A stretch of 13,987 nucleotides of DNA, from NCBI GenBank assembly GCA_030616165.1, contig JAUWXV010000077.1, positions 1-13,987 on the forward strand, given 5' to 3'. Below are positions 3 to 13,977 of the stretch, one piece after another (within the stretch, counting starts at the first letter, position 1; every line of letters starts with the position of its first letter). Source of the DNA: a bacterium. GTDB lineage: Bacteria > SM23-31 > JAUVVT01. The position numbers were made by a program, and so were the translations under genes. The notes beneath the pieces are model-generated. The model searched no databases. It was not told the DNA's origin and worked only from the letters and a program-made list of their open reading frames with translations.

Positions 3-3000
3 AAAAATACGGAATATTCAGATATTGAAGGAATGGAGCGATATGCCGAAAGTTTAAGGAAAAAATTTAAATCCGAATATGTTAATCACCCCAGAATAAG
101 GGGATTTTGTTTGCTGATAAAGAAAGAAGTTGTTGATACGATTGGTGGATTTGACGAAAGATTCAGATTCGGGAATTATGAGGATGATGATTTCTGCCTT
201 AGGATTAATAATGGAGGATTTTTCTGTGCAGTGGCGAAGGGGATATTTGTTCATCACTTTGGGTCGGTAACATTTAATGATATAGATATTAAATATAATG
301 AGATTCTTGAAGAAAACAGGAAAAGATTTATTGAGAAGTGGAGATTCGACCCTGAAAGCAGAGAAATAGAAATCTCAGGAACAGGTGAAATTAGAAAATT
401 AAAAGAAGAGGTTTATGAAGAAAAAGATATTCCTTGTCTTTTTGAAAAGGGGAGTAAGCTGGCAATATCCGGAAGAATTGATGAGGCAGAGGATGTTTAT
501 AATAAAATTCTTAAGATAAATCCCAATCATATAGAGACAATGTATAATTTTGCCTGTCTTGAGTATGAAAAGGGATTTCCAGAAAATGCGGTTCAACTTC
601 TTGAAAGAGTAGTAAGTCTGGATTCAAGTTTTGCCAAAGCCTGTAATGCACTTGGATTAATTAAATATTCACTTGGTAAAAAGGATTCTGCTTTAAGATA
701 TTTTAAAGATGCTATCTCAAAAGATATCAACTTTGATGAAGCGTATGACAATTATCTGAATACTGCAAATGAACTTGGATTTGCTGTAGATAAAAAGACT
801 GCTGACTTCGTTTTTTACACTGTTGGAATGAAGTTTGATGGTAATACCATATATGAAAAGGGGCTTGGTGGCAGTGAGAGTGCACTTTTTTATATAGCGA
901 GGGAACTGGCGAGGATTGGATATGTTGTGAAAGTTTTCAACAAGTGTGATAATCCTGGAATTTATGAAGGTGTGGAATATGGAGGCCTTACAGATTTTTA
1001 TATTTTTAATAGATTCTGCAAAATCAAGGTTTTTATTGCATCGCGCTCATTCAAGCCATACTTTTCAGAGATAAATGCCGAAAGAAAGGTTCTTTGGCTC
1101 CACGACCACTTTGAAATGGCATTTTTGGATGAGTATGATTTTAAAAAGATTGACCTCAAAGATATTGAGTTTTTTACCTTGAGCAAATGGCAGACTGATA
1201 TGTGGGCTGAAGGATTAAATCTCCCCGAAGATAAATTTTATATTACTCGCAACGGATTTAATCCTGACCTTTTCAACACAGAGAGGATAAAAAGAAATCG
1301 ATATAAATTAATCTATTCCAGCAGGCCAGAAAGGGGATTGGAGATTCTGCTTGATTTATTCCCGGAAATAAGAAAACGTGTACCTGAAGTGGAACTTAAC
1401 GTTTTTGCTTATGTTCCCTTTTCTGAAGATAGAGAGATGGAACCTCTTCGTGATAAATTAGAACAAGAAGGTGTGGTTTTAAGAGGAAGCGTTACTCAGG
1501 CGCAACTTGCGAAGGAGATGATGGGGTCGAGAGTTATGGTATATCCAAGTATTTGGGAGGAGACATCCTGTATGGCGGCGATTGAGGCACAGGCTGCCGG
1601 TCTGCCAATTGTTTCGTCTGTATTAGCTGCCCTGCCTGAGACTGTGGTTAATGGAAAAACCGGGATATTGATTGAGGGAGACCCTAAAAATGAAGAATAT
1701 AGAAAGAAATTTATTTATGAGGTCGTTGAACTTATTAAGAATGATAAGAAATGGGAGAATTTGAGTGAAAACAGCAGAAAAAGAGCATTTGAAATATATA
1801 CCTGGAAAAATATTGCAGAGGAATGGGCTGAAAAGTTTGAAGATGTTATTGGGAAAAAAAGTTTTTCAAAGATTAAGACAAAAAAGCTTTCTCTTTGTAT
1901 GATAGTGAAAAATGAGGAAAAAAATCTTCCAATATGTCTTGAAAGTGTTAAAGACATTGCGGACGAGATGATAATTGTTGATACTGGTTCTACTGATGAT
2001 ACTATTAAGATAGCGGAGAGTTTTGGGGCTGAGGTTTATAATTTTAAATGGTGTGATGATTTTTCAGAAGCAAGGAATTACGCTTTGTCTAAAGCGGAAG
2101 GCGAATGGATTTTATACCTTGATGCCGATGAGAGGTTGAATGATGAAAATGCAAAAAAGGTTTTAAAGGTGATAAACAGAGATGATATAATGGCGGTGAG
2201 CCTGAATCTACATACCCCACAGGAAGAAGACAATTTGATTAAATATTCATCGCTTGATTACTGCAGACTTTTCAAGAAGCATCCTAAGATAAGATTTGAG
2301 GGAAAAATTCACGAACAGGTCCTTCCTTCTATTAATATGTTGAACGGGAAGGTTCTCAAGTCTGATATAATAATTGAACATTTTGGATATAGAATTTCTG
2401 AAGAAAAGAGAAATGAGAGATTAAATAGAAATGTTAATATTCTGAAAAATGTTTTGAAAGAAACTCCTGATGATTCTTTTATGCATTTTTATCTGGCAAA
2501 GACATACAGATTAATGGGGAAAGATGCTGATGCTGTTAAAGAATTTGAAAAGGTGATTGAATTAAATAAAGGAGATATGAAGGATAGGCTGATTGCGGAA
2601 GTTTTTACGGCATTATCACAGTTATATCTTAAAATGGAGGATTATACTGCTTCGAGAAGTTGTGCTTTGAAGGCTATAGAGATGGCAGAGTACGAAATTC
2701 TACCGAGATACATACTTGTAACTCTTGATTTTATTGAAGAAAATTTTTCAGATGCTCTCACTAAACTTGAAAAAATGCTTGAAACTGTCGAAGATAAGAA
2801 TAAGAGAGCTTTATCCGGAGAGGTAGATATATCTCAAATTTATGAGGATATGGGGAATTGCAAGTTCAGGATGAATGATTTTAGCGGAGCAGTGAAAAAT
2901 TATGAAAAGGCAATCTTGATGGATGATAGTAAATATACAGCACATTTTAATCTGGGGAATGTCCTGTTTAACATGGGGAATATAGATGATGCATTAAAAG

Positions 3001-3098
3001 AATACGAAAGGGTACTGGAACTGAAGAAAGAATTTGAGCCAGCAGAAAAAAATTTAATGGTATGCAGAAAAATATTAGGCAGAGTAACAACACTTTAA
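3..3098 (+). CDS. Multidomain TPR glycosyltransferase (GT2-TPR-GT4-GT2-TPR), 5' end outside window
   Basis: Predicted cytoplasmic enzyme that transfers sugars from nucleotide-sugar donors, probably to protein. The reading frame is open to the left edge, so the ATG at 33 is likely internal and the N-terminal half of the first domain is missing. Numbering from that ATG: residues 1-115 are the end of a GT2 domain (GGFDERF, then EDDDFC); about 135-255 are TPRs; about 258-610 form a GT4 GT-B domain with the GGSE donor-side motif and an E-x7-E motif (E510, E518); about 617-800 form a second, complete GT2 domain with CMIVKNEE, DTGSTDD (650), DFSEARN, DAD (697-699) and IHE (759-761); about 810-1021 are TPRs. 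The catalytic motifs of the two complete domains look intact. The next gene starts 9 bases downstream. The domain calls are firm. Flagellin as acceptor is inferred from context; a polysaccharide acceptor is the alternative. Confidence 0.88.
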   Translation, partial: KNTEYSDIEGMERYAESLRKKFKSEYVNHPRIRGFCLLIKKEVVDTIGGFDERFRFGNYEDDDFCLRINNGGFFCAVAKGIFVHHFGSVTFNDIDIKYNEILEENRKRFIEKWRFDPESREIEISGTGEIRKLKEEVYEEKDIPCLFEKGSKLAISGRIDEAEDVYNKILKINPNHIETMYNFACLEYEKGFPENAVQLLERVVSLDSSFAKACNALGLIKYSLGKKDSALRYFKDAISKDINFDEAYDNYLNTANELGFAVDKKTADFVFYTVGMKFDGNTIYEKGLGGSESALFYIARELARIGYVVKVFNKCDNPGIYEGVEYGGLTDFYIFNRFCKIKVFIASRSFKPYFSEINAERKVLWLHDHFEMAFLDEYDFKKIDLKDIEFFTLSKWQTDMWAEGLNLPEDKFYITRNGFNPDLFNTERIKRNRYKLIYSSRPERGLEILLDLFPEIRKRVPEVELNVFAYVPFSEDREMEPLRDKLEQEGVVLRGSVTQAQLAKEMMGSRVMVYPSIWEETSCMAAIEAQAAGLPIVSSVLAALPETVVNGKTGILIEGDPKNEEYRKKFIYEVVELIKNDKKWENLSENSRKRAFEIYTWKNIAEEWAEKFEDVIGKKSFSKIKTKKLSLCMIVKNEEKNLPICLESVKDIADEMIIVDTGSTDDTIKIAESFGAEVYNFKWCDDFSEARNYALSKAEGEWILYLDADERLNDENAKKVLKVINRDDIMAVSLNLHTPQEEDNLIKYSSLDYCRLFKKHPKIRFEGKIHEQVLPSINMLNGKVLKSDIIIEHFGYRISEEKRNERLNRNVNILKNVLKETPDDSFMHFYLAKTYRLMGKDADAVKEFEKVIELNKGDMKDRLIAEVFTALSQLYLKMEDYTASRSCALKAIEMAEYEILPRYILVTLDFIEENFSDALTKLEKMLETVEDKNKRALSGEVDISQIYEDMGNCKFRMNDFSGAVKNYEKAILMDDSKYTAHFNLGNVLFNMGNIDDALKEYERVLELKKEFEPAEKNLMVCRKILGRVTTL

Positions 3099-3107
3099 AA
3101 AATTTTT

Positions 3108-4799
3108 ATGGAAAAGAATAAAGATATTCTTGAAAAATTATTGAAGAAGGTTGAAAAAAGACCTGATTCGGCTGAGGAATATGAGAAACTTTTTAATTAT
3201 TATGTCTCTGATGGAATGGAGGATGAAGCAGTCTCGATACTTGAAAAACTTCTTGAAATTAAAAAAGACTATCCGGAAGGTGAATGTCATCTTGGGATTA
3301 TGTATTTCAACAGGGGTGATTTGGAAAAGGCCGAAGAGAGATTTCTGCATGCACTTAAGATTGAGCCTGAAATGAAAGATGCAAATTTTAATCTTGGGAT
3401 TCTTTATAAAATCTATAAGAAATATAAAGAATCACTTCTGTTTTTCAGAAAAGTAATATACCAGGACCCTGCTGACATAGAAACACTCTTTAATGTTGCA
3501 GAATGCTGTGTAGAAATCGGAAAGAATAAAGATGCAGAATTTTTCTATCAAAAAGTTTTAAAATTAGACCCAGACCATAAAGGAGCAAAAGAAGGATTGG
3601 TAAAGATAAAGGGAAATAAAAAAGATATAAAAAGATATTCCAAAAAGGAGAGACTTGATATCCTTTTTGTTCAGGAATTTCCCTGTATTCGAAATTACAA
3701 GATGGCAAGAGCATTGAAATCAAAGGGACATAAGGTTTCTTTGGCGTATACACGGGCGAAGTTGAGTCAAATTTATAATCTTAATGATGATGTTTATCAT
3801 AAATTGATTCCTATAGCGGATTTCAGGCAGTTATGGGATGTTTCAAGGTTATATGATATTGTTCACTGTCATAATGAGCCTGATGTATTGACTGTTAACT
3901 GCCTTGCAGGGGATAGTCCAGTGATTCATGATACACACGACCTTATATCACTGCGGGAACCAAAGAATGTAAACTTTAAATTCTTTGAAGGTATTGCTAA
4001 CAGGGGTTCTGACGGAAGGGTGTATTCTTCTCACCTTCAAATGTCGGAAGCACATGATATGTATGGCATTGAACCTGATAATTCCATTGTTTTATACAAC
4101 TATGTTTCAAAGGATGATGTTCCATTTAAACTTAAGCCAAAAATTTCTAAAAAAGATGGCGAAATACATATAGTTTATGAGGGTGGCATTGGTGTGGATA
4201 TTCCACACAGAAATTTTATGCCGATATTCAAAGAGATAGCAAAAAGAGGAATTCATATTCACATTTATCCTGCCTTTCACATAAAGGAATATGAGAGGGA
4301 ATTCAGTAATAATCCTTATATTCATTATAATAGACCGATATCTCCGGGAGATATTATGTATGAGATGAGTCAGTATGATTTCGGTATAATACCATTTATA
4401 GAGTCGGAAGAGAATTCGCGACATACTAATTCAATGATTCCACATAAACTATTTGAATATATGGCTGCTGGGCTTCCTGTGATTGCTTCAGATATTAAAG
4501 GGGTAAAGTATTTTATAGAAAAAGATAATATCGGTATTACTTATAAAAATGTTGATGATATTTTTAATGTAATCGGTGAACTTGAAAAGATAAAAGTTAA
4601 GAATAAAATATATACAATTGAAGATGAAATTGATAAACTTGTTGAGTTTTATCATAAGATAATAGTTAAAAAGAAGGGCTCCCCAAATGAGATTTATGAT
4701 GAAAAGCGGAGAGAATATCTAAAAAGAGTATATTCTAAACTTGAACATATAAATGATTTTTATAAAGGGGTAAATATAGACCCTTTAACAATTAATTAA
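3108..4799 (+). CDS. TPR-GT4 family glycosyltransferase
   Basis: Predicted GT-B fold glycosyltransferase of family GT4 with an N-terminal TPR domain. Residues 1-170 contain about four TPRs (for example the stretch around HLGIMYFNRGDLEKAEERF). The GT4 part runs from about 180 to 520: the N-terminal Rossmann half includes HCHNEPD and IHDTHDL, and the donor-binding half includes KLFEYMAAGLPVIASD at about 446-461. The first glutamate of the usual GT4 E-x7-E motif is replaced by Ser441, as in many KLFEY-type GT4 enzymes, so this need not mean loss of activity. The C-terminal 40 residues are charged and helical. The start is the first ATG after the upstream stop; no Shine-Dalgarno sequence is visible, so translation is probably coupled to the preceding gene (9-base gap). 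Donor and acceptor are unknown; flagellin is the acceptor inferred from context. Confidence 0.87.
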   Translation: MEKNKDILEKLLKKVEKRPDSAEEYEKLFNYYVSDGMEDEAVSILEKLLEIKKDYPEGECHLGIMYFNRGDLEKAEERFLHALKIEPEMKDANFNLGILYKIYKKYKESLLFFRKVIYQDPADIETLFNVAECCVEIGKNKDAEFFYQKVLKLDPDHKGAKEGLVKIKGNKKDIKRYSKKERLDILFVQEFPCIRNYKMARALKSKGHKVSLAYTRAKLSQIYNLNDDVYHKLIPIADFRQLWDVSRLYDIVHCHNEPDVLTVNCLAGDSPVIHDTHDLISLREPKNVNFKFFEGIANRGSDGRVYSSHLQMSEAHDMYGIEPDNSIVLYNYVSKDDVPFKLKPKISKKDGEIHIVYEGGIGVDIPHRNFMPIFKEIAKRGIHIHIYPAFHIKEYEREFSNNPYIHYNRPISPGDIMYEMSQYDFGIIPFIESEENSRHTNSMIPHKLFEYMAAGLPVIASDIKGVKYFIEKDNIGITYKNVDDIFNVIGELEKIKVKNKIYTIEDEIDKLVEFYHKIIVKKKGSPNEIYDEKRREYLKRVYSKLEHINDFYKGVNIDPLTIN

Positions 4800-4833
4800 T
4801 TTTAATATTCATAGTGTAAAAGGAAATTTATTT

Positions 4834-6921
4834 ATGAATAATTTATTGGACGATGCGATAGCACTGCAGGACCATCAAAAAATCATTGAAATTTGTAATG
4901 AGAATTTGAAAGATATTGGTGAGAAGCATAATAATGAGGATTATTTAAGATATTCTATTATTAAAAGTATTTCTCTGATAAGGATTAATGGAATAGAAGA
5001 GTCAAAAGAGATTCTGGATAATCTTTATAATGAAGCATATAAAACTATTGATGTAGAATTTCTTCTTTGTCATATATCTTCACTCGTTGGTGAATGTGAA
5101 AATTCCATTAAATTTGGTAAAATATATCTTGAACATCTGGAGAACAAAAAAGGGAATAGTTTTCCTTCCTTTACCGATGCTGGTGGTAAACCGCACGAAG
5201 TATGCAACAATCTTGGGACGATGTCACTGAGGTTAAAGAGAAATGAAGACGCTGTGATGTTTTTTAATAAGGGACTTAAGTATAAAGATGATTATCCTCT
5301 TTTGTATCATAATTTAGGAGTTATTTACAGCAAGTTGAACAGATGGGATGATGCCAGAGAGATAATGAAGCGAGGAAGGGATAAATGTCCTGATGACCCT
5401 GAAATTCACAGAATATTGGGTATAGTCTATAGATCATTGTATTACTTTGGTAGAAGCAAGGAAGAACTTATAATTGCAGCATCACTCGGTTCTCAAGAGG
5501 CATTTTTTGACCTTGCAGTTCATTGCAGAATTTTATGCAAGTTTAAAGAGGCAAAATCATGGATGGATAAGTATCTTATTTTTAATCCGAAAAGCACCGA
5601 AGCCAGGGAATTTATAACCGCAATTAAAAAATTTCCTTATTACAGGAGAAAAGAACCAACAATAAGCGTTTGTATGATTGTCAAAGATGAGGAAGAGATG
5701 CTTGGTCAGTGTTTGGAATCGGTTGTTGATGTCGCAGATGAAATAGTTGTAGTTGATACTGGCTCAAAAGATAAGACAGTAGAAATTGCTGAAGAGTTTG
5801 GAGCAAAAGTTTTTCATCATCCCTGGAATGATAGTTTTAGTGAGGCGAGAAATTACTCATTAAGACATGCGACTGGTGATTGGATTTTGGTGATAGATGC
5901 TGATGAGGTTTTAGAACGGGAAGATATACCAAAAGTTCTGGAATCAAAGTGGCAAAGAGAGTTCAATGCAGTCTGTTTTGCAGTTTATAGTGTTCTTCCT
6001 GGTCAGATTGGCGGTGTTAATATGGGTAAAAATTATTCAGCAAGACTTTTTAAAAACAGAAAGAGCGTCTATTATGAAGGTATTGTACACAATGTTTTAA
6101 AACTGCCAAAGAAAACCGCTACATCTGAGATAAGAATGTATCACTACGGGTATGACCTGAGAACAGATAAGATGTCTGAGAAGTATGAAAGAAGTATAAA
6201 ACTCCTTTTAAAACAGGTTAAGGAAGACCCTGAAGACCCTTTTGTTCGATATAACACGGCTCAAATGTTTCTCAGCAGAAACTTTGTTAAAGAGGCTGAG
6301 GAACATGCTAAAAAAATAGTTGAGATTATTAATCCAGATAATAAGAAACAACAGCATCTTTATTTAATGGGTTTATACCAATTGGCTTTAATAAATATCC
6401 GTAATGATAATTACGAAACTTCTGAGAGATACTGCCTTGAAGCATTCCAAATTATGGAAGATTATGTAGACTCTATACATCTCCTTATGTGGATTTATTT
6501 TATTGAGAAAAGGTACGACAAAGCAAAAGAAATGTGCAATAAATTATTAAAAGCAATAGAAAAAAACCTGAAAAAAGATAATTTTAATATGCTTATATTA
6601 AATAAAATTGGAAGCGATTATGAGGCGTATTACGTTCTTGGAGAAATCGCCGGGTATGAAGGAGATGTATTAAAAGCAAAAGATTACATAATAAATTCCC
6701 TTAAGTGCAATCCATATTACTGGAAGGCTTATCACTGTCTTGGAGAGATTCTTATGAAAGAGGGAGATTATGAAGGGGCAAGTGAGTTTTTTGAATATGG
6801 CATAAAGTATGGTTATCTGAATGCAGAAAAATATGGGACTGTCGGTGCTAAAAGAGAAGATTATTCTTCTATGTTAGAAGGTTATAAAAATGCCCTGGAA
6901 AAGAGCGTATTAACCGAATGA
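4834..6921 (+). CDS. TPR-GT2-TPR glycosyltransferase
   Basis: Predicted family-2 glycosyltransferase (GT-A fold) between two TPR regions: TPRs at about 1-270, GT2 at about 272-455, TPRs at about 460-685. The GT2 domain shows CMIVKDEE, VVDTGSKD (D308), the SFSEARN segment and IDADE (DAD at 355-357), the metal/nucleotide-binding DxD equivalent. At the place where the two related GT2 domains in this window read IHE, this one reads VHN (His419, Asn420), a non-conservative change at a conserved site. An AAAAGGA Shine-Dalgarno at about 4818-4824 supports the ATG at 4834. The gap from the previous stop is 34 bases, with no terminator seen. The GT2 type resembles the WaaE/SunS-like group with C-terminal TPRs. 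Donor and acceptor are not shown by sequence. Confidence 0.87.
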   Translation: MNNLLDDAIALQDHQKIIEICNENLKDIGEKHNNEDYLRYSIIKSISLIRINGIEESKEILDNLYNEAYKTIDVEFLLCHISSLVGECENSIKFGKIYLEHLENKKGNSFPSFTDAGGKPHEVCNNLGTMSLRLKRNEDAVMFFNKGLKYKDDYPLLYHNLGVIYSKLNRWDDAREIMKRGRDKCPDDPEIHRILGIVYRSLYYFGRSKEELIIAASLGSQEAFFDLAVHCRILCKFKEAKSWMDKYLIFNPKSTEAREFITAIKKFPYYRRKEPTISVCMIVKDEEEMLGQCLESVVDVADEIVVVDTGSKDKTVEIAEEFGAKVFHHPWNDSFSEARNYSLRHATGDWILVIDADEVLEREDIPKVLESKWQREFNAVCFAVYSVLPGQIGGVNMGKNYSARLFKNRKSVYYEGIVHNVLKLPKKTATSEIRMYHYGYDLRTDKMSEKYERSIKLLLKQVKEDPEDPFVRYNTAQMFLSRNFVKEAEEHAKKIVEIINPDNKKQQHLYLMGLYQLALINIRNDNYETSERYCLEAFQIMEDYVDSIHLLMWIYFIEKRYDKAKEMCNKLLKAIEKNLKKDNFNMLILNKIGSDYEAYYVLGEIAGYEGDVLKAKDYIINSLKCNPYYWKAYHCLGEILMKEGDYEGASEFFEYGIKYGYLNAEKYGTVGAKREDYSSMLEGYKNALEKSVLTE

Positions 6922-6939
6922 TAAATTATTTTATGAAAG

Positions 6940-8817
6940 ATGGGATATATTAAAGATAAAAAGATATTGTTGTCATTATGTATGATAGTAAAGGATGAAG
7001 AGTCACACTTAAGAAGTTGTATTGAAAGTGTAAAAGATTTGGTTGATGAGGTAATAGTTGTTGATACTGGTTCTAAGGATAATACAGTAAAGATTGCACA
7101 GGAATTCGGAGCAAAAGTTTATCATTATAAATGGAACGATGATTTTTCATCAGCAAGAAATGAATCTTTGAAATATGCAGTGGGGGATTGGATATTGGTT
7201 CTGGATGCCGATGAAAGGATTGATGAAAAAAATAAGATAAAAATAAAAGATTTAATAAAGGGAAAGGGGAATTTAGCGTATTATTTAAATTTTAAAAGTA
7301 GGATGAATACGGGGTGTATGGGAGACTATGTTTACAATGCTCATCCCCGCCTATTTCAAAACAGGCGGGGTATTTTTTATCAGGGAAGAATTCATGAGGA
7401 AATTATATCTTCAGTGAAAATTGCCGGGGGAACAATATCTCTCAGTGACGTCGAAGTCGAACATTTCGGATATGAGGAGCATTTGTATAAACAAAAAAAC
7501 AAAGCAAAAAGGAATATTAAAATTTTAATGAAAGAACTGAATAATGATCCTGATAATGGAATGATATATTTTTATCTTGGTGAATCTTATTCATTGTTAC
7601 ACCAATGGAGAAAGGCGGTTGAATATTATAAAAAAGGAGCCAAAAAAGAGAATATTCCAGACATGAACAGGGCATTACTATATCAGAATTTTGGAACAGC
7701 ACTGCTTCACTTAAAAAGGTATGATGAAGCAATAAAATCAGAAGCGAAGGCTGTTGAGTTTAATCCTTACATAACAACGCCCCATATTGTTTCTGCTCAG
7801 GCAGGGTTTGAGAGTAAAAATTATGATAAAACTATCTGGGAGCTTAACGGGTATCTTGAAAAGATTAATCAGAAAAATATAAAAAAGAATAATTATATAA
7901 TTTTTCACGAACCGAATTTACCATTTGTTTATACCCTTTTGGGAAAGGCATATCTGAATACGAATAATTTTCATGATGCTGAAAAATGTTTTCTTAAAGT
8001 AATTAGTGAAAATGAGGCATCTGATGGAATATTTTATCTTTTATATAAAACAGCGTTAGGGAAAAACAATCTTGAAGGGGCTGAAGAATATATTAAAAAG
8101 GCAATAAATATAAATAAAAATTGTGCAGGATATTATGTTGAACTCGGAAGTATTTTAGGGAATCAGAAAAGATTTTCGGAAGCAGAGGGGATTTTCAAAA
8201 ATGCGCTTAATATTGACAGCAGAAATAAAGAAGCAGTAAAGGGCCTGGGATTGGTTTATTTTAATAAGAATGAATATAAAAAGGCTATTTCTGAATTTGA
8301 GAAGATTAAAGAAAATAATGTTGAGATACTCGAGTTGCTTGCCGAATCATACAGTAATATTGGACAGGTCAATGATGCTCAAAAGATTATCGAATCTCTC
8401 TTAAAAAGCGGTATAAGAAAGCAGAATTATTATTATTTTTTGGGGAGAATTAGCGAAATCTCGGGGGAAAAGGAAAAGGCAAATGAGTTCTATGGGCAGG
8501 CGGCATATTGGGAAGATGGGAGTTCGGAATTATATTTTATGACAGGGAATAAATTATTGAATGCAGGTTTGTTTGATGATGCCATATATGCATACAATAA
8601 ATCCATTAGATTAACTCCACAGGTTAAAGAGCCAAGAATGAATCTTGCTCTCACCTATATAAAAAAGGAAGATTTTCAAAAAGCGATAGAGACATATTCA
8701 GGTTTACTTAAGGTTGACCCATTGGATAAAAAAGTTAAAAGAAATCTTGCAGCTCTTTATGGAAAGATAGGGGATATAAGAAAATCTGAAAAATATCTCC
8801 TGGAATCGAAAGAATGA
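6940..8817 (+). CDS. GT2-TPR glycosyltransferase with long TPR array
   Basis: Predicted GT2 glycosyltransferase with the catalytic domain at the N-terminus (about 8-190) and TPRs filling the rest (about 195-625, roughly a dozen units). Motifs seen: LSLCMIVKDEE, VVDTGSKD (D42), DDFSSARN, LDADE (DAD at 89-91), RLFQN and GRIHEE (H152, E153). The layout is like SunS-type enzymes, but the TPR array is far longer. ATG 6940 is the only ATG between the in-frame stop at 6934 and the conserved motif; only a weak GAAAGA precedes it, so coupling to the upstream gene (stop at 6921) is likely. A GC-rich, terminator-like inverted repeat lies inside the catalytic domain (7345-7370). Its position next to flagellin suggests flagellin as acceptor, but that is inference. 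Confidence 0.87.
   Translation: MGYIKDKKILLSLCMIVKDEESHLRSCIESVKDLVDEVIVVDTGSKDNTVKIAQEFGAKVYHYKWNDDFSSARNESLKYAVGDWILVLDADERIDEKNKIKIKDLIKGKGNLAYYLNFKSRMNTGCMGDYVYNAHPRLFQNRRGIFYQGRIHEEIISSVKIAGGTISLSDVEVEHFGYEEHLYKQKNKAKRNIKILMKELNNDPDNGMIYFYLGESYSLLHQWRKAVEYYKKGAKKENIPDMNRALLYQNFGTALLHLKRYDEAIKSEAKAVEFNPYITTPHIVSAQAGFESKNYDKTIWELNGYLEKINQKNIKKNNYIIFHEPNLPFVYTLLGKAYLNTNNFHDAEKCFLKVISENEASDGIFYLLYKTALGKNNLEGAEEYIKKAININKNCAGYYVELGSILGNQKRFSEAEGIFKNALNIDSRNKEAVKGLGLVYFNKNEYKKAISEFEKIKENNVEILELLAESYSNIGQVNDAQKIIESLLKSGIRKQNYYYFLGRISEISGEKEKANEFYGQAAYWEDGSSELYFMTGNKLLNAGLFDDAIYAYNKSIRLTPQVKEPRMNLALTYIKKEDFQKAIETYSGLLKVDPLDKKVKRNLAALYGKIGDIRKSEKYLLESKE
7345..7378 (+). terminator. Terminator-like hairpin inside the fourth glycosyltransferase gene
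   Basis: CCCCGCCT (7345-7352) and AGGCGGGG (7363-7370) are perfect 8-base inverted repeats around a 10-base loop, followed directly by TATTTTTT. This is the form of an intrinsic terminator on the + strand, but it lies within an intact reading frame, in codons for the conserved RLFQNRRG segment. It uses CGC and CGG arginine codons, which are scarce in the neighbouring AGA-rich sequence. It may act as an attenuator in untranslated or poorly translated message; ribosomes would normally melt it. Function is unproven. Confidence 0.4.
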
Positions 8818-8945: not shown

Positions 8946-8972
8946 TAAAGTTTTAATGAAAAATGTCGATTA
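8946..8972 (+). promoter_or_regulatory. Sigma-28 (FliA/SigD)-type promoter of flagellin
   Basis: TAAAGTTT (8946-8953), exactly 11 bases, then GTCGATTA (8965-8972). The known flagellar sigma consensus is TAAAGTTT-N11-GCCGATAA, so the -35 box is perfect and the -10 box matches 6 of 8 including the CGAT core. A start of transcription near 8980 would give a leader of about 170 bases before the flagellin ATG. A second site of the same form lies upstream of flgM, which strengthens both calls. Confidence 0.75.
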
Positions 8973-9153: not shown

Positions 9154-10029
9154 ATGGCTATTGGTGATTCCAACCGTATTAATACAAACATTGCAGCATT
9201 AAATGCATTAAATGCATTAAAAAGTATAAACAGAGAATTAGAAAGGAGTCAGCTTAAATTAGCAACAGGATGGAGGATTAACGAGGTATCGGATGATCCA
9301 GCAGGATTTGTAATATCTAAAAGACTTGAAGCCCGAGCAAGGGGTCTGGCTGTTGCTTATGATAATGTGGGAACCGCAAAAAATGTGTTAGCGATTGCGG
9401 AAGGTGGAATGATAAATATCCAGAACATCCTGATTACTATGAAAGAAAAGGTAACTCAAGCGGCAAGCGATACTTTAGGTTCTGCTGAAAGGAATGCAAT
9501 AAAAACCGAAATCGACCAGTTAACGCAGGAGATTAACGATATTGTAGATGAGACTACTTTTAATAATGTAAGTTTACTTGATGGTACTTTTGTTGATAAA
9601 TCTATACAGACCGGTGAAGAAACAACAGCTATATTACTCTTTTCTATTGCTCAGCCAACAGCTCTTGGTGATGGTCTGGGAATGGGTCTCACAGCACCTG
9701 ATTTGATGGTTGATTCCACAAGTGTATCGGATTTAGTATTCACGGCAGCAGGTTCATCAACGGCGCTGGCAAATGTCGATAATGCTATTGAAGTTCTTGC
9801 ATATTTTTTACAGGATGTAGGAGCAAAGGTTTCACGTTTAACAGTAAAGGAATCTACGCTAAGTATTTCTATTACAAATACACTGGCTACAAAAGGAAGG
9901 ATATGGGATGCGGATATCGCAAGAGAACAATTGAATTCTACAAAAATGCAGATTTTGCAGCAGACTTCTACTGCACAACTTGCTCAGGCGAATGTTTCTC
10001 CGCAGAATGTATTGGCTCTATTTCGGTAA
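9154..10029 (+). CDS. fliC: Flagellin, compact form
   Basis: Major subunit of the flagellar filament, exported by the flagellar type III system and assembled under the FliD cap. The 291-residue protein has both conserved ends. The N-terminal D0/D1 helices run to about residue 145 and include TGWRINEVSDDPAGF (the usual SGLRINSAADDPAG position). The C-terminal D1/D0 runs from about 205 and ends with QILQQTSTAQLAQANVSPQ and NVLALFR. The middle is short (about 150-205), so D2/D3 outer domains are essentially absent. It has no cysteine; Ser/Thr in the central and distal segments (around DSTSVSD and AAGSST) are plausible O-glycosylation sites. Start: ATG after a near-perfect AAGGAGGT at 9141-9148. 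Driven by a sigma-28-type promoter, with probable CsrA control in the leader. fliS follows after 74 bases. Confidence 0.97.
   Translation: MAIGDSNRINTNIAALNALNALKSINRELERSQLKLATGWRINEVSDDPAGFVISKRLEARARGLAVAYDNVGTAKNVLAIAEGGMINIQNILITMKEKVTQAASDTLGSAERNAIKTEIDQLTQEINDIVDETTFNNVSLLDGTFVDKSIQTGEETTAILLFSIAQPTALGDGLGMGLTAPDLMVDSTSVSDLVFTAAGSSTALANVDNAIEVLAYFLQDVGAKVSRLTVKESTLSISITNTLATKGRIWDADIAREQLNSTKMQILQQTSTAQLAQANVSPQNVLALFR
9196..9222 (+). repeat. Three tandem 9-base units in the flagellin start region
   Basis: GCATTAAAT occurs twice in tandem, then GCATTAAAA, coding for ALN-ALN-ALK in the N-terminal D0 helix. The unit length is a multiple of three, so slippage would add or remove three residues without a frameshift. 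It may only reflect the conserved NxxALNA motif of flagellins. Confidence 0.7.
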
Positions 10030-10103
10030 TATTTGTCTGAATTTTTCGAATATGCGTTAAAAATTGTAAATAAGTTGGTAATAAGTTATTCAGGAGATAG
10101 TAA

Positions 10104-10457
10104 TTGACCGGGATGAGAAATCGAACAAAGAAGCATTTAAATTATCAAAAGAATCAGATTATGAGCATGTCACCTGCTCAACTGGTTTTAAAGATTTATG
10201 ATTACGCTATTTTGGGATGTAAATTAAAGGATTCAAGAAAGGTATCAAAAGCTCTGATAGAATTAATTTCTGCATTAAAGTTCGAACATGGTGAAATCTC
10301 TTTGGGGATGTTTAAACTTTATCAATATTGTATGGATATAGTAAAAAAGAATCAGTTTGATGAAGTGATGGAAATTTTGTCAGAGCTCAGAAATACCTGG
10401 TTAGTTGTCGTAAAGGAGAATCAATCCCCAAAGAAAAACATGGCAAAGGCACTTTAA
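10104..10457 (+). CDS. fliS: Flagellin export chaperone FliS, short form
   Basis: Cytoplasmic chaperone that binds the C-terminus of newly made flagellin, prevents premature polymerisation and delivers it to the export gate. The family pattern is visible: YQKNQIMSMSPAQLVLKIYDY (the usual Y..nqv.TAsP.eLilmLYdga) at about 14-34, then ALIELISALKF, then LYQYCMDI and the ending ELRNTW. At 117 residues it is somewhat shorter than usual (about 125-135); the shortening lies in the second-helix loop and before the last helix. The TTG at 10104 is preferred: AGGAG at 10092-10096 gives 7 bases of spacing, whereas the in-frame ATG at 10113 would have 16. It lies between fliC and fliD, the standard order, and its stop directly abuts the fliD ATG, so translation is probably coupled. 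Confidence 0.9.
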   Translation: MTGMRNRTKKHLNYQKNQIMSMSPAQLVLKIYDYAILGCKLKDSRKVSKALIELISALKFEHGEISLGMFKLYQYCMDIVKKNQFDEVMEILSELRNTWLVVVKENQSPKKNMAKAL

Positions 10458-11945
10458 ATGGCGGATATTTCTTCGATATCAACACAACAGTCGGGCGTTG
10501 AACAATTAGTATCAAAGTATCTTTCTCTGGAAAGAAAACCAATTGATGAACTCGAGAAGTCTAAAAGCAGTCTTAGTAAAAAGATAAATATTTACTCTGA
10601 TCTTAAATCTAAACTAAAGGTTTTGAGTGATCGGGTAAAAAGGTTTACCGAGACCGGAGGTAAGATAAAGATCGGGGCTAAAAATGCGAGTTCATCGAAT
10701 GAAAAGGTTTTTACTGCAGAGGCAAGTTCTGATGCTTCTATTGGGATTAATACTATTTTCGTGTCGAGACTTGCTTCCAGAGATACTGCCATTTCAAAAC
10801 AATTTGAAAGTCTGAACGGAACAAGTCTTGCCTCAAAGTTATATGGTACTGTTCAGAAGTTTGATATCACTGTAGGTTCAAATGATGCTGTTAGAATTAC
10901 GCTTGAATTTAATGATGAAAATGAGACTAATGAAAGCATACTCAAAAGAATTGTTTCTGCTGTTAATAACTCCGAAGCCGATGTCAGCGCAAATTATATA
11001 AAAGATACTCCAAACACTGCAAGGATAACTATTATAAGCAATAATACAGGTTCTACAAACGAAATAAGTTTACAGGAGGTAGATGGTTCAAACATTTTAA
11101 GAGAATTAGGAGTGATAACTGCTAAAGATTCCAGACCTGAAGCTGAGGATACATCTGGAGGATTTCTCCAATCTGACCCTGATAATCTGAATGCAAGTTT
11201 TACCATGAACGGTATTAGTATAATAAAGGATTCAAATACTGTTAGCGATATTCTTCAAGGAGTCACTATTAATTTACTTTCTGTACAAGCGGGGGGAGAA
11301 AATCCAGAAACTCTTTCTATAACCCATGACAGTGAGGCAATAAAGGGCGAAATTGAATTATTTATTAAAGATTATAATGATATAATAAAGTATTTGAATG
11401 CTAAGACCAGTGTTGACCCCTCAACATTTACCAGAGGGGCACTCGTAGGGAAGTTTACATATTTCAATCTTAGATTAAATTTGCGGAGTATAGTATCGGG
11501 ACAGGTAAGTTCTGTCGAAAGTGGTGCACCATCTTTACTTTCTCAGATTGGCATTGATATAGAAAGGAATGGAACTATAAAGATTTCGGATAACGATAAA
11601 TTTCAGGAATATATTGATAAAGGTGATTCGTCTATATCAGGCCTTTTTAGTTCAGAAAATGGGATTGCAGAGAGGATTGATGCTCTTCTTAAAAATTATG
11701 TTCGGACCGGGGGTATTGTTGATGACGATAAAAAGTTTTTAACCAGAAGAATTAAGAATATAGATAAAAGAATTGCCAATTTCGAGGGAAGATTAAAAAT
11801 AAGGGAAGCGTCACTGAGAAGGCAATTTACAGACCTCCAGCGGATGTTAAGTGCACTCAACTCTCAACAAGCCATGTTACAAAGAAGTATGTTTTATTAC
11901 GGAGGTGGTAGTGGAATGAATTACGGGAATCAATATTTATATTGA
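10458..11945 (+). CDS. fliD: Flagellar filament cap protein FliD
   Basis: Forms the cap at the filament tip under which exported flagellin folds and is inserted. The 495-residue length is typical. The N-terminus has the FliD_N pattern (SGVEQLVSKYLSLERKPIDEL, about 12-32, then a heptad-rich helix to about 65). The C-terminus has the FliD_C pattern: a long coiled-coil helix from about 420 with FTDLQRMLSALNSQQAMLQ. The middle is the variable capping domain. An unusual tail rich in Gly, Tyr and Asn (about 478-495) follows the last helix. The ATG directly follows the fliS stop; an AAAGG within the end of fliS (10445-10449) is its ribosome site. No cysteine-rich or enzymatic motif is seen. Role assigned by family and by the fliC-fliS-fliD order. 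Confidence 0.95.
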   Translation: MADISSISTQQSGVEQLVSKYLSLERKPIDELEKSKSSLSKKINIYSDLKSKLKVLSDRVKRFTETGGKIKIGAKNASSSNEKVFTAEASSDASIGINTIFVSRLASRDTAISKQFESLNGTSLASKLYGTVQKFDITVGSNDAVRITLEFNDENETNESILKRIVSAVNNSEADVSANYIKDTPNTARITIISNNTGSTNEISLQEVDGSNILRELGVITAKDSRPEAEDTSGGFLQSDPDNLNASFTMNGISIIKDSNTVSDILQGVTINLLSVQAGGENPETLSITHDSEAIKGEIELFIKDYNDIIKYLNAKTSVDPSTFTRGALVGKFTYFNLRLNLRSIVSGQVSSVESGAPSLLSQIGIDIERNGTIKISDNDKFQEYIDKGDSSISGLFSSENGIAERIDALLKNYVRTGGIVDDDKKFLTRRIKNIDKRIANFEGRLKIREASLRRQFTDLQRMLSALNSQQAMLQRSMFYYGGGSGMNYGNQYLY

Positions 11946-11980
11946 TAAATTAAATTATAATCAAAAAATCGATTTTTAGA

Positions 11981-12008
11981 GAAAGTAATTTTAATACTTT
12001 CAGATTTT
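11981..12008 (+). terminator. Weak hairpin after fliD, possible terminator
   Basis: GAAAGTA (11981-11987) pairs with TACTTTC (11995-12001) around a 7-base loop, followed by AGATTTTT. The stem is AT-rich and weak, so termination would be partial at best. flaG has its own good ribosome site but no promoter I can recognise in this gap, so read-through is needed. Confidence 0.25.
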
Positions 12009-12062
12009 TATAAAAAAGTTACTCGAGAAAATAGAGGAAAAATTTTAAGGAGATGAAAGATT

Positions 12063-12446
12063 ATGATTGCCAGCAGGATGACAATTGGAATTAATTTTCC
12101 CTCTAATGTAGTCCCAGAGAAGATTGTTGAAGGAGATAGACAAACTCCAAATAGTAATCCCTCAAAAACATCCGATGAGATTTCACAAGTGGGTGAAGCT
12201 GTTCGCGAACATATAGGAATAAGAAGAGAAGTTCTGGAAAAAGGGATTGAAGAGATAAATCAAAATATTAGAATTTTCAATACGAAGTTATCTTTTTATA
12301 TAGATGAACCTACTGGCAGGACCGTAATAAAAATATCTGACCGTGAGACTGATGAAGTAATTCGGGAGATACCACCAATTGAATTTTTGAAAATTGCAGC
12401 TAAACTGAGTGAAATTATAGGAATCATTATTGACAAAAAAGTTTAA
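12063..12446 (+). CDS. flaG: FlaG family flagellar protein
   Basis: FlaG proteins occur beside fliD in many flagellates; in Pseudomonas and Campylobacter relatives, loss alters filament length, but the mechanism is unclear. The 127-residue protein has a polar, low-complexity N-terminus (about 1-60) and the conserved C-terminal FlaG domain: KLSFYIDEPTGRTVIKISDR (about 75-94), then EVIREIPPIEFLKIAAKL, matching the known pattern of VDExTGR followed by IRQIPPEE. AAGGAG at 12047-12052 with 10 bases of spacing supports the ATG at 12063. It lies 117 bases after fliD and probably shares the flagellin transcript, since no clear promoter precedes it. No signal peptide or membrane segment is seen. Confidence 0.92.
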   Translation: MIASRMTIGINFPSNVVPEKIVEGDRQTPNSNPSKTSDEISQVGEAVREHIGIRREVLEKGIEEINQNIRIFNTKLSFYIDEPTGRTVIKISDRETDEVIREIPPIEFLKIAAKLSEIIGIIIDKKV

Positions 12447-12451
12447 ATTAT

Positions 12452-12478
12452 TAAAGATATTTTGAAATTTGCCGATAT
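12452..12478 (+). promoter_or_regulatory. Sigma-28 (FliA/SigD)-type promoter of flgM
   Basis: TAAAGATA (12452-12459), 11 bases, GCCGATAT (12471-12478). The -10 box equals the Bacillus SigD consensus GCCGATAT exactly, and TAAA lies at the right distance (15 bases between TAAA and GCCGATAT). The geometry is the same as the flagellin promoter at 8946. Transcription should start near 12485, giving a leader of about 57 bases that includes the palindrome AACCCGGGTT (12506-12515). Confidence 0.8.
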
Positions 12479-12541: not shown

Positions 12542-12841
12542 ATGAGGATTGAAAGTATACTCCAGGCATTAACTACACAATTTCTTCAGAAAAAGGGAGT
12601 TAAATCAAGTTCTAAACCTTTAAATTCAACTGAAGACAAGGTAGAAATTTCTTCTGAAGCCAGAGATTTGCAGAAGAATCAGAAAACTAATGATTTACAG
12701 AAAGGCGGTGCAAAAGATATTCAGCCTATTAGAGAAGAGAAGGTTAAAGAAGTTATTTCAAAGATTGATCAAGACTTTTATTCCTCTCCAAAAGTTATTT
12801 CTAAAATTGTGGATAGTTTGTTTAAGGTATTTGGGATTTAA
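12542..12841 (+). CDS. flgM: Anti-sigma-28 factor FlgM
   Basis: FlgM binds sigma-28 and holds late flagellar genes off until the hook-basal body is finished, when it is exported through it. The 99-residue length is typical. Features seen: DKVEIS at 32-37 (the common D.V.IS motif before the disordered part), a polar Gln/Lys/Asn-rich linker (about 40-60, with DLQK twice), and the C-terminal sigma-binding pattern PIREEKVKEVISKI then DFY (about 62-80), ending in a helix to residue 99. AAGGAAGTGA just upstream supports the ATG at 12542. It has its own sigma-28-type promoter (negative feedback) and ends at an intrinsic terminator. The N-terminal 45 residues are clearly related to those of the gene at 13427. 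Confidence 0.85.
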   Translation: MRIESILQALTTQFLQKKGVKSSSKPLNSTEDKVEISSEARDLQKNQKTNDLQKGGAKDIQPIREEKVKEVISKIDQDFYSSPKVISKIVDSLFKVFGI

Positions 12842-12861: not shown

Positions 12862-12899
12862 AAAAGGATAGTTTTTTTAAAAGGCTATCCTTTTTTTAT
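12862..12899 (+). terminator. Intrinsic terminator after flgM
   Basis: AAAAGGATAG (12862-12871) and CTATCCTTTT (12885-12894) form a perfect 10-base stem with a 13-base loop, and the T run continues (12891-12897). It separates flgM from the promoter of the next unit. Confidence 0.85.
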
Positions 12900-12910
12900 T
12901 TTTAATTTCC

Positions 12911-12938
12911 TTGACATTAGTAAAAAAAATTATATATT
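12911..12938 (+). promoter_or_regulatory. Sigma-70-type promoter of the flgN-like unit
   Basis: TTGACA (12911-12916, exact consensus), 16 bases, TATATT (12933-12938, 5 of 6 matches to TATAAT). The start of transcription would be near 12945, about 25 bases before the GTG start. It lies just after the flgM terminator, which supports a new transcription unit. AT-richness makes chance -10 boxes common, so the exact -35 box carries the weight. Confidence 0.6.
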
Positions 12939-12970: not shown

Positions 12971-13411
12971 GTGAAAGCTAAAAATTATAAGAATGAAATT
13001 GATGAACTTCTTAATGGGGAACTAAAACTTTGTCAAAAGATTTTTGAGTATACTGAGCGGTTTGAAAATCTTGCAAGCGATGGTGAACTTGAAAAGACAA
13101 ATGAAATTTTAAAAGATAGGATGGAAGAAATTGAGGAGATAAAATTAATTGAAGAAAAGATAGGATTAATCTTAAAAAAAAATAAAATTACTATGGAGAA
13201 GCTGAGAAATGAATTCGGAGTGATTATTCTTGAGATTGCAAAACTATTAAAAAAAATTTTTGAACTCGATGATAAAGTAAAAGTTTTATTAAATAGGCAG
13301 AAAAATGCTGTTTTAGAAGATTTAAAGAAACTTAAAATCGGAAAAGTTGTTTATGAAAAATATTTAACTTCCTTAAAAGGGGATAATGGTTTTATTGATA
13401 TAGTTGAATAA
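12971..13411 (+). CDS. FlgN/FliT-like putative flagellar export chaperone
   Basis: Small all-helical, highly charged protein of 146 residues with no signal peptide, cysteine cluster or enzymatic motif beyond coiled coils. The layout fits the FlgN/FliT class of type III export chaperones: an N-terminal helix (about 5-35), a Glu/Lys/Ile coiled coil (about 40-75), and a third helix (about 80-130) with the family-like FELDDKVKVLL and LKKLKIGKVVYEKYL. FlgN escorts hook-filament junction proteins FlgK and FlgL; FliT escorts FliD. Which applies here cannot be told. The GTG at 12971 is the only good start after the in-frame stop at 12944; no ATG fits and no Shine-Dalgarno is properly placed, so translation may be weak. 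Sitting between two FlgM-like genes favours FlgN, since flgM-flgN pairs are common. Assignment is by pattern, not by strong motif. Confidence 0.6.
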   Translation: MKAKNYKNEIDELLNGELKLCQKIFEYTERFENLASDGELEKTNEILKDRMEEIEEIKLIEEKIGLILKKNKITMEKLRNEFGVIILEIAKLLKKIFELDDKVKVLLNRQKNAVLEDLKKLKIGKVVYEKYLTSLKGDNGFIDIVE

Positions 13412-13426
13412 AAGAGAAAGAAATTT

Positions 13427-13903
13427 ATGCGTATAAATGATATAATTTCAATATTTAAATTACAAATTTTTCATAAAAAGCAAGTTAAAACTTCAAAAGC
13501 AAAAATCTTAGATATTAAAGACACTGTTACAATTTCTAAGAAAGGAAAGACTTTACAAAAAGATAAGGCAGAATTTTTAGTTGCAAAAAAAGCACTTTCC
13601 AAAATCCCTAATCTAAGACAGGAAAAGATACGATCATCATTATTGAAAATAGAAAGCAATTTTTATAACAAGTCTATTGTTAAAAGAGAACTGTCAAAAA
13701 AATTTCTTACATCATGGCTTTTAAGTACAGAGATTTCCGGAACCAGAATTGCTTCAAAATATAAACCAGAACTTAGAAGGATACCTGATGTAAGAAAGAA
13801 AAAAATAGATGAAATTAGAGAAAAGATAAGAAATAAATTTTATAATAATAAAAAAACAATTTCAGAATTATCTGAGAGGATTTTAAGAGATTTAGGGATA
13901 TAA
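13427..13903 (+). CDS. FlgM-like protein with two tandem C-terminal FlgM signatures
   Basis: Paralogue of the FlgM at 12542. The first 45 residues align with it: MRI, then KK.VK.S, D.V.IS (32-37) and LQK. After this come two copies of the FlgM sigma-binding signature: copy A at about 60-94 (IPNLRQEKI ... KIESNFY) and copy B at about 119-158 (IPDVRKKKI ... KIRNKFY), joined by a linker with SWLLSTEISG. Both share the pattern I..xR..K[IV]......KI...FY with FlgM. Copy B ends with RDLGI, like FGI of FlgM. At 158 residues it is over half again as long as FlgM and more basic. Gap to the upstream gene is 15 bases, with only a weak AGAAAG ribosome site. It could bind two sigma-28 molecules, or be a divergent regulator that no longer binds sigma-28. 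Relationship to FlgM is well supported; function is inferred. Confidence 0.7.
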   Translation: MRINDIISIFKLQIFHKKQVKTSKAKILDIKDTVTISKKGKTLQKDKAEFLVAKKALSKIPNLRQEKIRSSLLKIESNFYNKSIVKRELSKKFLTSWLLSTEISGTRIASKYKPELRRIPDVRKKKIDEIREKIRNKFYNNKKTISELSERILRDLGI

Positions 13904-13941: not shown

Positions 13942-13977
13942 AAGGCGGGATTATATATAATTCTGCTTTTTTTATTG
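13942..13977 (+). terminator. Intrinsic terminator after the second FlgM-like gene
   Basis: Positions 13942-13953 pair with 13958-13969 around a TATA loop (12 pairs, three of them G-U), followed by a T run to about 13973. The G-U pairs exist only in the + strand transcript (they become A-C mismatches in the other), so it serves the genes to its left. Confidence 0.75.

Follow-up and report, generated by a model that had tools for sequence, protein, structure and literature searches.

FlgM keeps the flagellar sigma factor inactive until hook construction is complete and, as an exported 1:1 inhibitor, is the textbook coupling of gene expression to organelle assembly. The window (the whole stretch of DNA analyzed here, 13,987 nucleotides, constituting the entire contig C58 in a genome of 3.7 Mb) carries late flagellar genes in its right part, two flgM-like genes among them. 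The product of the second, henceforth referred to as FlgMM, was originally predicted to combine one FlgM-type N-terminus with two copies of the C-terminal sigma-binding signature. The question raised by this locus is whether such a two-headed FlgM is real and, if so, what the second head would do. The genes and signals concerned are as follows:

9154..12446, + strand: flagellin, fliS, fliD and flaG, late flagellar genes located upstream (Pfam matches above the cut-offs)
12452..12478, + strand: exact sigma-28 promoter of flgM1, TAAA-N15-GCCGATAT (zero mismatches; 0.03 expected per window by chance)
12542..12841, + strand: flgM1, single-headed FlgM of 99 aa (PF04316, E = 2.8e-5; 25.1 bits with neighbours in frame)
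12862..12894, + strand: terminator-like hairpin separating flgM1 from the flgN-flgMM unit (z-score −4.7)
12911..12938, + strand: sigma-70-like promoter for flgN and flgMM, TTGACA-16-TATATT (11 of 12 bases as in the consensus)
12971..13411, + strand: flgN/fliT-like export-chaperone gene, directly 5' of flgMM (weak FliT match, E = 0.0017, below the cut-off; gene order repeated in G001, G002 and Neomarinimicrobiota)
13427..13903, + strand: flgMM, two-headed FlgM of 158 aa (PF04316, E = 7.7e-8, in two stretches; full-length relative in G001)
13942..13969, + strand: terminator-like hairpin 3' of flgMM (z-score −4.1)

The single flgN/fliT-like gene separates flgM1 from flgMM, and FlgM1, two genes upstream, has one head, as had been stated. 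Immediately 5' of the flagellin gene, four long open reading frames with TPR repeats and glycosyltransferase-like sequence (3-8817) possibly represent a putative flagellin glycosylation block. At least five flagellin loci are present in the genome (G000; contigs C58, C82, C119, C171 and C199), the copy on C199 lying in two frames. A sigma-28-like site with two mismatches is located at 8946-8972, about 180 bp 5' of the flagellin start, and exact sigma-28 sites are found just upstream of some flagellin genes of class-mates (L070, L071).

The whole FlgMM protein matches the Pfam FlgM family in its two stretches with 32.9 bits (cut-off 25 bits), and each part also matches when taken separately, the N-terminal 96 aa with E = 0.0046 and the C-terminal 62 aa with E = 1.2e-4. 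Likewise, an HMM derived from single-headed FlgMs only recognizes two domains (32.3 and 32.7 bits), and the last 60 residues reach 36.7 bits, compared with no more than 8.8 bits for 1000 shuffled versions of this segment. The isolated hairpin of head 1 has no Pfam match. Both the doubled signature and its predicted ranges (about residues 60-94 and 119-158) were thus confirmed, the signature tyrosines being residues 80 and 139. The protein is subdivided as follows:

13427..13450, + strand: residues 1-8, N-terminus of the FlgM type and presumed signal for export (pattern common to FlgM1 and class-mate FlgMs; 7 of 8 residues as in G001)
13520..13558, + strand: DxVxIS element preceding head 1, residues 32-44 (most conserved block when 47 two-headed proteins are aligned, with a mean pairwise identity of 0.41)
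13601..13714, + strand: head 1 hairpin, residues 59-96, with Tyr80 (single-FlgM HMM and 47-protein alignment)
13715..13777, + strand: linker between the heads, residues 97-117, about 21 residues (unconserved, mean pairwise identity 0.085)
13778..13900, + strand: head 2 hairpin, residues 118-158, with Tyr139 (C-terminal part alone matches PF04316, E = 1.2e-4; above all 1000 shuffles)

The shared N-terminus proved real as well: FlgMM starts with MRINDI and FlgM1 with MRIESI, and the two proteins align across residues 1-85 (E = 1.1e-6). Ahead of head 2, only a possible remnant of the DxVxIS element is seen (TEISGTR, about residues 103-109), indicating that FlgMM carries a doubled C-terminal hairpin and is not two whole FlgMs in tandem. 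An AlphaFold2 model contains helix-turn-helix structures at residues 65-76/83-103 and 120-135/142-156; its low confidence (mean pLDDT 56.5) is unsurprising for a protein whose folding takes place on its target. Structure comparison using this low-confidence model returned common helical bundles only and was not used. A sequence search of the PDB with FlgMM gave no useful match, and a profile of the two-headed proteins matched FlgM of 9WSF in the head 1 region only. FlgMM was not assigned to the NCBIfam equivalog TIGR03824, as its score (29.4 bits) is below the cut-off of 40.75 bits, which is also true of FlgM1 (18.4 bits). As far as anatomy can be read from sequence, it is supported that FlgMM belongs to the FlgM family and combines a single N-terminus with two hairpins of the sigma-binding type at its C-terminal side.

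Two-headed proteins were gathered by scanning 386 genomes with Pfam FlgM, by inspection of long frames and by a search with an eight-member alignment; with the window protein as sole query, no match was obtained in the genome contigs, and single-sequence patterns proved too strict. The sole other genome of the same family found (G001) encodes a two-headed protein of equal length, 49% identical over all 158 aa, downstream of a flgN-like gene that is frame-broken in the assembly; the start of the gene that follows resembles that of a fapA-like gene in G002. The frame change splits this flgN-like gene between its halves (L003, 966-1397) and is either an assembly error or real. Class-mates G002, G003 and G004 have single-headed FlgMs, and in G003 and for one of the two copies in G002 the gene lies between flaG and the flgN-like gene, the place that flgM1 occupies in the window.

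Full-length two-headed FlgMs are present in five phylum-level lineages. They were found in all five genomes examined of a small phylum (that of G056), in 2 of 13 genomes of the phylum of G226, in 8 of 82 genomes of the phylum of G195 (frames read) and in 36 of 245 genomes of Candidatus Neomarinimicrobiota (the phylum of G333 and G059). Among the Neomarinimicrobiota matches listed, FlgM matches span both heads throughout, meaning that all are two-headed, and five records from this phylum encode proteins of the two-headed set. The statement that known FlgMs have one sigma-binding region holds for the described proteins, while the two-headed form proved widespread. In the nearly complete genomes of G333, G059, G056, G198 and G195, nothing FlgM-like other than the two-headed protein was matched, so this protein presumably does the job of FlgM there. 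Of 10 full-length Neomarinimicrobiota copies, just 3 are recognized by Pfam FlgM at E ≤ 0.01, so that this form is easily missed by annotation. Another lineage encodes an additional, compact form of the two-headed FlgM, in which the linker is shorter (L128; G299, C13, 17719-18039). G149 was dropped from the two-headed set, as its second head fails to beat shuffles. Two separate flgM-like genes lie close together in G348 (L130; C1, 1734254-1735037) and in G045 (C4, 12905-13737), a possible intermediate toward the fused two-headed protein.

One Neomarinimicrobiota locus (L185) reads fliS-like gene, fliD, flaG, flgN-like gene and flgMM, names being given by resemblance to Pfam-scanned neighbours, and the gene order of the window equals this order with flgM1 inserted after flaG. 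Elsewhere, flgMM follows fliS (G056, G226, G403) or a flgN-like gene (G195). Because the layout recurs in several distant bacterial phyla, the two-headed FlgM appears to be a genuine form of this well-known switch that has been overlooked. A literature search for two-headed or duplicated FlgM, covering a minor part of the subscription journals, found no description, and the protein is a real, conserved and apparently undescribed variant.

In an alignment of the 47 two-headed proteins, which served to analyze constraint, mean pairwise identity is 0.25 for head 1 and 0.27 for head 2, compared with 0.41 for the DxVxIS block and 0.085 for the linker. All heads carry Tyr or Phe at the signature position, and the two positions of a protein lie 41-60 residues apart. 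Equal conservation of the heads while the linker is free indicates that both heads are maintained. When heads were taken in isolation, 40 from each position, 21 of the first and 9 of the second matched Pfam FlgM at E ≤ 0.05, and no family other than FlgM was matched more than once. Since a profile built on second heads also picks up a similar hairpin in an unrelated protein of yeast, the hairpin alone is no proof of sigma binding. Outside the family of the window genome, head 2 is devoid of the DxVxIS element and is thus not a complete FlgM.

Head 2 of the window protein and of its G001 counterpart is closer to the single-headed FlgMs of class-mates than to the second heads of other phyla. In leave-one-lineage-out models, built on short segments, second heads have no consistent preference for a head-2 model; in the window protein, head 1 and head 2 alike prefer head-1 models. 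The lack of a common head-2 signature, combined with the class-mate-like second head in this family, suggests that several independent doublings are more likely than a single ancient origin, the segments compared being short. Repeated origin, if so, would argue for an advantage of having two heads.

Upstream control appears to differ between the two genes of the window. The promoter stretch of the flgN-flgMM unit is 85% identical to that of G001 over 33 nt, versus 37% across the 60 nt upstream, and the two classical flgM promoters seem to be split, the sigma-28 promoter serving flgM1 and the sigma-70-like promoter flgN and flgMM. Among the 47 upstream regions of flgMM genes, a sigma-28-like site is exact in 5, has at most one mismatch in 11 and at most two mismatches in 20; the latter include a two-mismatch site of the window, 122 bp 5' of flgMM, which was not counted as a promoter. 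In Neomarinimicrobiota, the site mostly lies 60-85 bp 5' of the flgMM start, within the 3' end of the flgN-like gene, where agreement may partly be due to the encoded protein sequence. The third-position C of a GCC/ACC codon is uniform in the aligned sites, versus 32% in the background, but the related genomes are not independent. In G560 (L157), an exact sigma-28 site precedes the flgN-flgMM pair instead.

FliA, encoded on contig C27, is the only match in the genome to reach the FliA/WhiG cut-off (282.9 bits). The next match, a 285-aa sigma factor on C56 (134 bits), looks from its sequence like a primary-type sigma factor. With one FliA above the cut-off, the originally suggested binding of two different sigma factors becomes less likely, and two docking hairpins for the same sigma factor are the simplest reading of FlgMM. 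We tentatively favor the plausible view that FlgMM is an exported anti-sigma-28 factor whose two hairpins each most likely take one FliA, with an early/late division between the paralogues. For this scheme we infer FliA binding by each head, a 1:2 ratio, export, and a division of labour. Before hook completion, FlgMM would be made with its flgN-like neighbour from the sigma-70-like promoter and would sequester FliA, each hairpin most likely holding one FliA and each molecule thus two. After the export switch, FlgMM would leave through the flagellar secretion channel and both FliA would be freed, while FlgM1, produced from its sigma-28 promoter, would supply late negative feedback. The candidate sigma-28-like promoter just 5' of flgMM in many Neomarinimicrobiota, as in classical flgM, speaks for this reading, as do the FlgM match in two stretches, the equal conservation of the heads, the genomes in which FlgMM stands alone and the late flagellar operon with its export chaperones. 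The incomplete second heads outside this family, their weak Pfam matches in isolation and the yeast hairpin speak against it.

The constrained spacing of the signature tyrosines would also fit a different arrangement, in which both hairpins contact the same FliA, or FliA within RNA polymerase, in a tighter and more slowly releasing 1:1 complex. Known FlgM wraps round one sigma-28 over several domains, blocking polymerase-binding regions (PMC4598750), so two contacts are conceivable, and head 2, generally lacking the DxVxIS element, is not a self-sufficient FlgM. However, sigma-28 is already covered by one FlgM and, judging from the known complex, copies of one hairpin would be expected to compete for a single site; we regard this arrangement as unlikely. 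A somewhat poorer prospect still is that only one head binds FliA and the other a different partner, for example the export gate, a further sigma factor or the flgN-like chaperone. The heads do differ in detail, the hairpin motif also occurs in unrelated proteins and flgMM nearly always adjoins an export-chaperone gene (flgN/fliT-like or fliS), but the classical single-headed flgM also lies beside flgN, so this context is not specific; moreover, the same hydrophobic and aromatic positions are kept in both heads, and a second FliA-type sigma factor, sought as a partner in the window genome, was not found. Neutral internal duplication with one redundant, decaying head, to which the weakness of head 1 of the window protein when taken alone (E = 0.0046 with the N-terminal part; no Pfam match of the isolated hairpin) might point, is very improbable, as both heads are kept in G001 and are equally conserved over five phylum-level lineages while the linker varies freely.

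Returning to one FliA per hairpin, a broader and less probable proposal is that the two-headed FlgM constitutes a widespread, repeatedly evolved checkpoint that doubles sigma-28 release per export event, the paralogues of the window having split early and late roles. If true, the two-headed form, the only kind found in Neomarinimicrobiota, would change the stoichiometry of the switch and would let the influence of valency on its threshold be studied in a natural setting.

Like FlgM (PF04316) of E. coli/Salmonella and of Aquifex (FlgM-FliA complex, PDB 1RP3/1SC5), FlgMM has the N-terminus, the DxVxIS element and the C-terminal hairpin, and as in FlgM systems its gene is part of a late flagellar operon beside a flgN-like gene, with FliA encoded in the genome. 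Unlike FlgM, which acts 1:1 with sigma-28 (PMC3861889), FlgMM carries the hairpin twice, in 158 aa versus about 100. In E. coli, a single flgM is expressed both within flgA-flgM-flgN from a sigma-70 promoter and from a sigma-28 promoter of its own (PMC3861889). The window likewise combines a sigma-70-type unit that includes flgN with one sigma-28 promoter; in contrast to E. coli, however, these two predicted promoters would serve two flgM genes, with a terminator-like hairpin between them.
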